This document shows, piece by piece, positions 51,926-56,525 of a stretch of DNA of 64,000 bases. Each line of letters opens with the position of its first letter. The stretch's first letter is position 1. The stretch covers positions 1-64,000 of the forward strand of contig ONCP01000002.1 in assembly GCA_900316385.1 (NCBI GenBank), in the 5' to 3' direction. A program made the position numbers and the translations under genes. The DNA comes from an uncultured Eubacteriales bacterium. Its GTDB lineage: Bacteria; Bacillota; Clostridia; Oscillospirales; Acutalibacteraceae. The notes beneath the pieces were generated by a model that was not told the origin of the DNA, made no database searches, and saw nothing but the letters and a program-made list of their open reading frames with translations.

Positions 51926-52546
51926 TTATTGATTTTTCAGTCTGTCGGGATCGAGGATCCTTATCCTGCCGTACTCTGTCCGCAAAAGCCCGTTGTCCCT
52001 GAATCCTTTCAGGATCTTGCTGACAGTCACTCTGGTGACGCCCGTTTGCGCCGCGATATCCTCGTGAGTGAGCTTTACCTCTGAGTGCTCGTCGGCGTTT
52101 TGCAGCAGGACGTCGGATATCCTTTGGTCAGCCTTCATAAAAGTCATAGCGTCAAGCTTGTTTGAGAGCTGCCGAACTCTTGCCGCCTGCAAGCCAAGCA
52201 GTTCAAGCGCCAGGCGAGGGTGGTTGCGTGTCAGGTTGAGCAGAGTCTCCTCGTTTATCACCGCGACTTCGATATTGGTCAGAGCCTTTGCCGAGCTGAT
52301 CCTCGGCATTCTGTCAAAGAACGCCGCCTCGCCGAGGATCTCGCCGCGTCCCGCGGACGACAGCGTGTGTTCTACCCCGTCGGGAGAGGTCATGTATACG
52401 CGGACCTTGCCTGTTTTAAGGTAATAAAAGCTCTCCGCGCGGTCGCCCTGATAATAGATTATGCTCCCCTTCGAGAACCTTCTCGTGTAGCTGAGCCTGC
52501 CGAATACGGCGCTTATTTCGTTTTCGCTGTTTATAGGGCTGTTCAT
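51926..52546 (-). CDS. Crp/Fnr-family transcriptional regulator
   Basis: A 206-residue regulator with an N-terminal cyclic-nucleotide-like sensor barrel (~15-120: FSKGSIIYYQGDRAESFYYLKTGKVRVY, GEILGEAAFFDRMPR), a dimer helix (~125-150) and a C-terminal winged helix-turn-helix (LTHEDIAAQTGVTRVTVSKILKGFRDNG). No Cys cluster for an iron-sulfur centre is present, so it is not a classic oxygen-sensing Fnr; cAMP contacts are not conserved enough to call it Crp. It is divergent from leuCD. A perfect dyad overlaps its own -10 box, suggesting autorepression. Confidence 0.93.
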   Translation of the reverse strand: MNSPINSENEISAVFGRLSYTRRFSKGSIIYYQGDRAESFYYLKTGKVRVYMTSPDGVEHTLSSAGRGEILGEAAFFDRMPRISSAKALTNIEVAVINEETLLNLTRNHPRLALELLGLQAARVRQLSNKLDAMTFMKADQRISDVLLQNADEHSEVKLTHEDIAAQTGVTRVTVSKILKGFRDNGLLRTEYGRIRILDPDRLKNQ

Positions 52547-54869: not shown

Positions 54870-55286
54870 ATGAAAAGTTACAGAAAAGAGCTGTGGTTCA
54901 ATATTCCCGCGCGCAGAAAAATAGTCAGGATCACCGAGGATGTACAGCGCGCGATCGACGAGAGCGGCGTCAAAGAAGGTCTGGTTCTGGTCAACGCCAT
55001 GAATATCACGGCGTCCGTCTTTATCAACGACGACGAAAGCGGACTTCACTCCGACTACGAAAGGTGGCTTGAAAAGCTCGCCCCCGAAAAGCCGTACAGT
55101 CAGTATGATCACAACGGCTTTGAGGATAACGCCGACGCTCACCTCAAGCGAACCGTTATGGGCAGAGAGGTCGTCTGCGCGATTACCGACGGCAGACTTG
55201 ACTTTGGCACATGGGAGCAGATTTTTTACTATGAGCTCGACGGAAAGCGCAACAAGCACGCGCTGATCAAGATTATAGGAGAATAG
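54870..55286 (+). CDS. YjbQ/UPF0047-family protein
   Basis: A 138-residue protein of the YjbQ (UPF0047) family. [45 protein letters not shown] covers the conserved core, and [17 protein letters not shown] with [29 protein letters not shown] gives the family His-Lys and Trp-Glu regions. Some members have weak thiamine-phosphate synthase activity, but the true role is unsettled. It is co-transcribed with the tautomerase. A structured region of ~190 bases follows. Confidence 0.9.
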
Positions 55287-55287
55287 T

Positions 55288-55475
55288 GTGAACAACACTG
55301 ATCCAAGCAATATTGCCCGCTCATTCTGCCGCGTACGGCAGTGAGCGGAGGCGCCGTCCGATTTTGTTTTGGGTAACAAACCCATACAACGGGGACGGCT
55401 CGATCGGCAGCTACACCTTATCAGCCCACGGTAAGGTCGTAGGGATCATCAATGAATCTTGTGGGCTGAAAGGCT
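55288..55475 (+). ncRNA. Structured intergenic RNA candidate with H-type pseudoknot before ddl
   Basis: Nearly all of this gap can fold. Hairpin 1: CCGCTCA + CTGCCG (55317-55331), loop CGTA, CGGCAG + TGAGCGG (55336-55348). Hairpin 2: GCCGTCC/GGACGGC (55353-55359/55393-55399) with inner TTGT/ACAA and TGGGT/ACCCA. Helix S1: 55411-55420 with 55432-55442, 10 pairs and one bulge. CAGCCCAC in the S1 loop (55422-55429) is complementary to GTGGGCTG (55461-55468), giving an 8-bp S2 and a geometrically reasonable pseudoknot (linkers 1, 2 and 18 bases). S2 ends one base before the ddl AAAGG site. It matches no riboswitch class I know. Regulation of ddl is inferred. Confidence 0.5.
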
Positions 55476-56525
55476 ATGGCGATTATTATGAATATAGCAG
55501 TTATTACGGGCGGACTCAGCACCGAGCGCGACGTCGCGATCAGCTCGGGCGGAAAGATTGCCGCCGCGCTCAGAAGCAAGGGTCACAACGTTGTTTTGAT
55601 TGACGTATATATGGGTTATGACGGCGAGATAGACCCGAAGCACCTTTTTGAGAACAACGCGGATCTGCTTCAGGCAAAGGGCGTAGGAGAGATCGTTCCC
55701 GATCTGAAGGCGGTCAGGGAGAGCCGCCGAGGAGACAGCCCGTGCTTCCTCGGAAGAAATGTTGAGAAGATATGCCGCTATGCCGACATCACCTTTTTCG
55801 CGCTTCACGGCGGCGAGGGTGAGAACGGTCAGCTTCAGGCGGCGTTTGATATACTCGGAATAAAATACACGGGCGCAAGCTACCTTGCCGCGGCGCTCGC
55901 TATGGACAAGGGGATCTCACGCGCGCTTTTTGCCCAGCAGAAGGTCAGGATTGCCGCGGGCGACCTCTTTGACAGAACCGAGGATATCAACGAATGGGAT
56001 ATTTTCCCCTGCGTGATCAAGCCCTGCTCGGGCGGCAGCAGCGTCGGAATAACGAAGGCGGAGAACCGCGAGCAGTTCAACGCGGCGGTCAAAGAAGCCT
56101 TCTCCTACGAGGACGAGGTGGTTGTGGAGCAGTTTATCGAGGGCAGAGAGTTTTCTGTCGGAGTGCTCGGCGACGAAGTTCTGCCTCCGATCGAGATCAT
56201 CCCGACAACAGGCTTCTATGATTACAAGAGCAAGTATCAGGCGGGTCTTACGGTTGAGGAGTGTCCCGCTAAGATCACCGAGGCGGAGGACAAGGAGCTT
56301 CGCGAGGCGGCTTACAGAGCTTATAAAACGCTCCACCTCAGCGCCTACGCCAGAATGGACTTTATACTTACCTCCGACGGCAAGGCGTACTGCCTTGAGG
56401 CGAACACTCTCCCGGGTATGACACCCACAAGCCTGCTTCCTCAGGAGGCGGCTGCGATCGGAATGGATTATCCGACGCTATGTGAGAAGATCGTTGAGCT
56501 CTCGCTCGAAAAATACAATAAATAA
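55476..56525 (+). CDS. ddl: D-alanine--D-alanine ligase
   Basis: Ddl (349 residues) is an ATP-grasp ligase making D-Ala-D-Ala for peptidoglycan. NIAVITGGLSTERDVAISSGG opens the protein; FALHGGEGENGQLQ, PCVIKPCSGGSSVGI, VVEQFIEGREFSVGVL and YCLEANTLPGMTPTSLLPQ are the ATP and metal regions. The omega loop reads FYDYKSKYQAG, with the Tyr typical of D-Ala-D-Ala rather than D-Ala-D-lactate enzymes. ATG 55476 follows AAAGG closely; ATG 55488 fits the usual family start and is a real alternative. murF lies 14 bases downstream. Confidence 0.96.
   Translation: MAIIMNIAVITGGLSTERDVAISSGGKIAAALRSKGHNVVLIDVYMGYDGEIDPKHLFENNADLLQAKGVGEIVPDLKAVRESRRGDSPCFLGRNVEKICRYADITFFALHGGEGENGQLQAAFDILGIKYTGASYLAAALAMDKGISRALFAQQKVRIAAGDLFDRTEDINEWDIFPCVIKPCSGGSSVGITKAENREQFNAAVKEAFSYEDEVVVEQFIEGREFSVGVLGDEVLPPIEIIPTTGFYDYKSKYQAGLTVEECPAKITEAEDKELREAAYRAYKTLHLSAYARMDFILTSDGKAYCLEANTLPGMTPTSLLPQEAAAIGMDYPTLCEKIVELSLEKYNK

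Follow-up and report, generated by a model that had tools for sequence, protein, structure and literature searches.

A dispersed structured RNA element with covarying crossing helices at the start codons of ddl and other genes of Clostridia

The preQ1, SAM-II and SAM/SAH riboswitches place an H-type pseudoknot beside the Shine-Dalgarno (SD) sequence, exclusive folds are possible in them, and they precede genes of one pathway. The element described in this work resembles these riboswitches in its H-type pseudoknot beside the SD and in its possible exclusive folds, but it differs from them in that it stands before arbitrary genes, is dispersed and has no match in Rfam. A review of the preQ1 riboswitch is available (PMC11625349).

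MITEs, Correia elements, RPEs and CIR are short, non-autonomous and palindromic repeats with many copies per genome, and an RNA structure has been proposed for some of them; Correia elements often lie just upstream of genes, while RPEs are tolerated in genes, often in frame (PMC10969869, PMC2229807). Our element is like MITEs, Correia elements and RPEs in copy number and small size, and the ddl segment is MITE-like in having many copies per genome and no coding gene of its own; no terminal inverted repeats were seen in the element. Neither review describes a confinement to the gap between SD and start codon together with a substitute SD, and the terms Shine-Dalgarno, ribosome binding and start codon are absent from both (PMC10969869, PMC2229807). 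In the IS200/IS605 family, IS608 has subterminal hairpins and guide-flank base pairing (PMC5934647). The element shares the subterminal hairpins and can pair with its own flank; however, unlike that family, it is tied to start codons, its crossing helices are conserved, and several copy-rich genomes have no Y1 gene. The element resembles IStrons and group I or II introns (PMC4227781) in being a structured RNA inserted in expressed genes and rendered harmless to the host, but it is far smaller, has no catalytic core recognised by Rfam and carries its own SD.

The locus lies in the window, i.e. the whole stretch of 64,000 nucleotides of DNA that was analysed. Elsewhere in the window, the contig edge carries the 3'-terminal part of a 23S rRNA (positions 1-92), and a reading frame resembling a Crp/Fnr-type regulator lies at 51926-52546 on the minus strand. 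The features at the locus are as follows.

54870-55286, plus strand: yjbQ (TIGR00149), the gene upstream of ddl; its last codons contain the native SD
55278-55281, plus strand: native Shine-Dalgarno GGAG, within the last yjbQ codons; left flank of the element; orthologues that lack the element have their SD at this place or nearby
55285-55299, plus strand: H0 hairpin, a worn remnant AGTGT-GAACA-ACACT, with which the element begins on the left, close behind the native SD
55317-55348, plus strand: H1 hairpin, with an equivalent hairpin in other full-length copies
55353-55399, plus strand: H2, an extra hairpin of the ddl copy, with a similar insert in the copy L204
55402-55409, plus strand: P3 5' strand, consensus AATNNCCA, 7/8 pairs here; covariation
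55411-55420, plus strand: S1 5' strand; direct reading and covariation
55422-55429, plus strand: S2 5' strand, which is the S1 loop; direct reading and covariation
55432-55442, plus strand: S1 3' strand; direct reading and covariation
55461-55468, plus strand: S2 3' strand; direct reading and covariation
55468-55473, plus strand: GAAAGG, the putative substitute SD borne by the element; invariant in 57 aligned copies and complementary to CCTTTC of the 16S 3' tail
55476-55478, plus strand: inner ATG of the element, which in this copy shares the ddl frame and would add MAII
55477-55484, plus strand: P3 3' strand with the consensus TGGNNATT, where the element ends on the right; covariation
55488-56525, plus strand: ddl, D-alanine--D-alanine ligase (TIGR01205 and NF002378 above cut-off), with its start ATG 55488 taken from orthologues

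A sequence-only reading of this segment had proposed two hairpins and two further helices, S1 and S2, and all four can be read directly. The first hairpin pairs CCGCTCA (55317-55323) with TGAGCGG (55342-55348) around an inner CTGCCG/CGGCAG, and the second pairs GCCGTCC (55353-55359) with GGACGGC (55393-55399). S1 has 10 pairs, with A55415-U55437 paired and C55438 bulged, and S2 joins CAGCCCAC to GTGGGCTG with 8/8 pairs. The last base of S2 had been placed one or two bases ahead of AAAGG, which is wrong, as G55468 abuts AAAGG at 55469-55473. Three things escaped that reading: the helix P3, the dispersed copies, and a short hairpin of AGTGT with ACACT at 55285-55299. The region 55288-55490 folds at -82.2 kcal/mol, compared with -59.4 +/- 4.3 for 200 shuffles (z of -5.35, with 0/200 as low). 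The minimum free energy structure of the ddl leader is a long hairpin, in which S2 is extended by CCTT/AAGG, in place of the pseudoknot; pseudoknots are outside the structures that the program used can represent.

When the ddl segment was compared with its own genome, more copies of its last 64 bases were found before other genes, and its first 35 bases gave one copy. Two covariance models were used for wider searches, namely R1, built from eight copies, and R2, a second model used for the class- and phylum-wide samples. With R1 there are nine strong copies in the own genome (1.83 Mb) and 0 to 21 matches per genome among the genus relatives, with 18 in G005 and 21 in G018, although weak matches can be lost from the counts in relatives. 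The mean identity of copies within a genome is 0.685, against 0.648 +/- 0.007 under shuffled labels, and the nearest neighbour comes from the same genome for 52 of 84 copies; identity is as low as 60% between the two ddl copies, in G000 and G015. R2 detected the element in 40 of the 391 Clostridia genomes sampled and in 29 of their 221 genera, and the phylum-wide sample of 398 genomes held no carrier besides the window's own genome (0/397 others). The sequence GTGGGCNGAAAGGCTATGG occurs in at least 118 stretches of named genome contigs; the matches listed are mostly Clostridia MAGs and include Ruminococcus sp., Oscillospiraceae and Eubacterium sp., and one is in Ructibacterium gallinarum. Only 1 exact match was found in 2.9 million viral contigs, so the element is not typical of phages.

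There is no conserved reading frame within the element. Protein-coding conservation had been named beforehand as a possible refutation of the RNA reading, and it was not observed, since stops are scattered and neither frames nor peptides are conserved. The statement that no described class was known here also held: at the gathering score, Rfam 15 gave no family over the element in the window and seven further copy loci, at E up to 1 or 10 the matches over the element were sub-threshold ones of miRNA type and to the Na+ riboswitch, and no published description of such an element was found in the open-access literature. The ddl leader is a member of a widespread class of dispersed, structured RNA leaders associated with start codons, and this repeat, of up to about 165 bases, is an apparently undescribed class of structured RNA.

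An ORF, counted as an open frame of at least 50 codons, starts 7-17 nt past GAAAGG in 141 of 149 copies, and at exactly 14 nt in 85. Five of the other eight copies are cut by contig ends; L095 seems to begin at the inner ATG, L109 has a short frame only, and for L131 the gene lies 41 nt on with its own SD. Copies are always in sense orientation to the gene, and the host genes seen show no functional theme (gyrB, ddl, ispF, asparagine synthase, a ThiF-like protein, a phosphatase and a PcsB-like coiled coil). Copies in distant families of the class also lie at gene starts, before frames resembling fabD, pgk and murA; these three names, alaS and some other host-gene names were assigned from the N-terminal sequence alone. 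Among 136 copies, the inner ATG shares the frame of the gene in 96 but not in the other 40, and it is therefore dispensable as a start. For ddl, we judge from the orthologues that the native start is ATG 55488, rather than the in-frame ATG 55476 within the element.

Comparison within the genus revealed empty sites for ddl and 17 further gene starts. The element occupies the same place before ddl in G015 as in the window. On the other hand, in G005, G033, G031, G029, G030 and G011, yjbQ is followed by the SD and then the ddl ATG with nothing between them, as in GGAGAGTAACAGTT-ATG of G033. Most ddl orthologues of the genus whose upstream region was read are without the element, with one present in G015 and a degraded one in G006. 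At the 18 gene starts, most orthologues without the element have the native SD directly before the start codon, which means that the element fills the gap between native SD and start codon. For argC the empty site is AAGGATTGATTAAT-ATG and the filled one is AAGGATTGAGAGTGTGA...GGCGATTAAT-TTG; for dtd they are AAGAGGCTATAATT-ATG and AAGAGGTTATAGTGTGA...GGCAATTAATA-ATG. At trpS, which has a worn copy, no native SD remains on the left side. Of the 62 copies that have H0, 42 show an SD motif in their left flank, compared with 7% of background windows. The ends of the element are ambiguous by a few bases in these comparisons, in which neither a clear target-site duplication nor terminal inverted repeats were seen. 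No near-identical strain pair with a filled and an empty site was found, and movement was not sighted directly.

A full-length copy begins after the native SD with H0 and H1, followed by AATNNCCAT and by S1 with the first strand of S2 in its loop; then come the second S2 strand GTGGGCNG, AAAGG, CTATGGNNATT and, some three bases further on, the start codon of the gene. The palindrome H0 is built around GTGTGA....TCACAC, in other subfamilies around ACGTGA....TCACGT, and its full-length consensus in relatives is AGTGTGAAAATTCACACT. It resembles the palindrome TGTGA-N4-TCACA, which is probably a chance likeness. Shorter copies are frequent, some without H0 and some without H1. The copy L014 / L005 (G000:C22:22729-22812) is an internal-deletion derivative, with a plain hairpin ahead of GAAAGGCTATGGCGATCAATATG, and it is still at a gene start. 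L080 and L113 of G031 show tandem copies, with a second element directly 3' of GAAAGGCTATGG of a first one, as if inserted behind the SD of the element itself. A G005 subfamily (L101, L104, L107, L122 and L123; also L224 and L249) has a rearranged S1, pairing TTTACGC with GCGTAAG, possibly through a helix shift. In the subfamily of L181, L198, L202, L240 and L414, H0 is followed by GCCTCCGGCGG, whose anti-SD-like CCTCC could pair with the native SD. L294 (G031:C34:33314-33784) has a T-box leader upstream of the element, before alaS; the match of 82 bits is just below the gathering score of 93 and is cut by the end of the stretch, with E 7e-17. In this leader the element thus follows another regulatory RNA.

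The sequence-only reading had set covariation of S1 and S2 as its own check, and both helices covary across copies. S1 and S2 were proposed beforehand from one sequence, while P3 was noticed on the same data as those used here. In an unsupervised scan of about 5,000 column pairs in an alignment of 143 copies, which was built without structure, the top four pairs belonged to P3, P3, S1 and S2 in that order. Under a tree-simulated null, only the top P3 pair is significant by itself. The helix sums of S1, S2 and P3 each lie above those of the same columns in all 60 tree-simulated alignments, but this null ignores column composition and is therefore too easy to beat. In 57 diverse copies, changes on both sides were found at 15 of 26 pairs, in 90 cells against 34 +/- 7 after shuffling (0/500 as high); since most of these copies were found by a pattern that fixes the S2 3' strand, the sample works against detecting changes in S2. 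The two helices cross and both covary, and S2 abuts GAAAGG, which describes an H-type pseudoknot beside the SD. The S1 5' strand GCCTT has an alternative partner in the AAGGC of the SD, with which it can prolong S2 to a single long hairpin, and the two pairings are mutually exclusive. The long-hairpin pairing is possible in 97.4% of cells and hardly varies, with one cell changed on both sides, whereas S1 forms in 81.9% of cells with covariation. A fold made of the hairpin only was rejected, as the long hairpin is almost without covariation whereas S1 covaries, and it is retained as a possible alternative state. Of the two states, we infer, it is the pseudoknot in which GAAAGG remains free. Finally, complementarity of the H0 3' arm is 3.61 to its own left flank, compared with 2.67 +/- 0.14 to flanks taken from the other copies of its genome group (0/2000 permutations).

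The motif GAAAGG is invariant across the 57 aligned copies. The 16S 3' tail is CACCTCCTTTCTA in three related genomes, one of them of the same genus, and is complementary to AGAAAGG; the search for the 16S tail in the own assembly gave no match. Sequence comparison alone gives the position of the element, its dispersal, a conserved S1/S2 pseudoknot that P3 closes, and immediately 3' of S2 a GAAAGG that can pair with the 16S tail. We consider it rather probable that the element is a dispersed, presumably mobile non-coding element that sits between SD and start codon, where it takes the place of the translation-initiation region. It would enter the short native gap of arbitrary genes in the sense orientation only. 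The 3' arm of H0 matches the left flank of the same copy, and H0 may mask the misplaced native SD; the host gene would then be translated from GAAAGG at its native ATG. The S1/S2 pseudoknot would hold GAAAGG away from the competing long hairpin, formed by GCCUU of the S1 5' strand with AAGGC, and with GAAAGG kept free even essential genes such as gyrB, ddl and alaS could bear the insertion. The compact 3' domain may be what makes the insertion tolerable.

Several observations count against this explanation. GAAAGG stands unusually far from the gene ATG, in most copies 14 nt, and at 2 nt it is too close to the inner ATG. P3 and S2 lie on both sides of the SD, an arrangement that looks repressive rather than permissive. 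L014 keeps only one hairpin before GAAAGG and no pseudoknot, and the copies without H0 and H1 weigh in the same direction. As to the origin of the copies, no transposase, intron or parent element was found. When the H0 palindrome was searched alone in the genus genomes scanned with R1, as a sign of an autonomous parent, nearly every match was a known copy; the copies read have no gene between H0 and the 3' domain, with a few H0 matches, at contig ends or in contigs without a known copy, that could not be checked. Our further proposal, held tentatively and perhaps wrong, is that a mobile element recognises the SD region by pairing of the H0 arm with the flank, or through the anti-SD CCTCC in some subfamilies, and inserts before the start codon together with a replacement initiation site, so that the insertion would be survivable in almost any gene, including essential ones.

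Other explanations fit parts of these data. The segment had been suggested as a pseudoknot cis-regulator of ddl. The part that stood is a real, covarying H-type pseudoknot RNA before the ribosome-binding site; a regulator of D-Ala-D-Ala ligase did not. A metabolite riboswitch specific to ddl is extremely improbable, even though an H-type pseudoknot immediately precedes the ribosome-binding site: copies of the element also stand before dozens of unrelated genes, and no copy precedes most of the ddl orthologues examined upstream, so that the ddl-regulator reading is unsupported. A dispersed repeat unrelated to ddl, which had been named as the finding that would speak against such a regulator, is what the copies turned out to be. 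The expectation that riboswitches stand before genes of one pathway failed in the same way, the host genes being arbitrary. The copies might instead form the regulon of one global factor or ligand acting in trans, with GAAAGG opened and closed by the S1/S2 pseudoknot against the long hairpin and P3. The two exclusive states of the S1 5' strand, and the position of P3 and S2 on both sides of the SD, would suit such a translational switch, but host genes without a functional theme, match numbers from none to 21 within one genus, and orthologues that manage without the element make it a doubtful account, though one to keep in view.

A non-autonomous DNA transposon of the IS200/IS605 type, in which the hairpins serve single-strand DNA transposition and the RNA fold is incidental, appears unlikely to us. 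In that case AATNN/NNATT would be the right guide and cleavage site and the flank-matching H0 arm the left guide. The subterminal hairpins, the lack of a clear target-site duplication and the match of the H0 arm to its own left flank agree with it. However, the Y1 transposase (PF01797) is absent from the copy-rich G000, G005, G018, G089 and G119, and an IS200/605 transposase was rejected as the mover because it does not track copy number. The crossing helices S1 and S2 both covary, and the targets of this family leave the confinement to the SD-to-ATG gap unexplained, as selection alone would leave some copies elsewhere in intergenic regions. An RNA of intron type, leaving the mRNA by excision so that the native SD-ATG spacing returns, would explain why the element lies exactly where excision is harmless and always in sense orientation; it is very unlikely, given a length of at most about 165 nt, no Rfam intron match and hence no catalytic core recognised, and a conserved GAAAGG of its own that would be needless if the element were spliced. 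Many copies have a GTG or ATG inside H0 after the native SD, from which a translated leader peptide could couple the native SD to the downstream gene. Yet the stops of that frame are scattered, in most copies over a range from about 120 nt upstream of GAAAGG to 50 nt downstream, the start is itself paired within H0, and the first ORF after the native SD is conserved neither in frame nor in peptide, which makes such coupling highly improbable.

The class is widespread, being present in 29 of 221 sampled Clostridia genera, and housekeeping genes of gut and rumen bacteria have copies at their start codons. The inner ATG can yield false N-termini, MAII or MEII, so the annotation of start codons is affected. 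The distribution raises the question of which machinery finds the SD-to-ATG gap. If the preferred reading of a mobile element with a replacement initiation region is true, a repeat can swap the ribosome-binding site of a gene wholesale, and the element would be a portable natural initiation module for studying how a pseudoknot beside the SD affects 30S binding.
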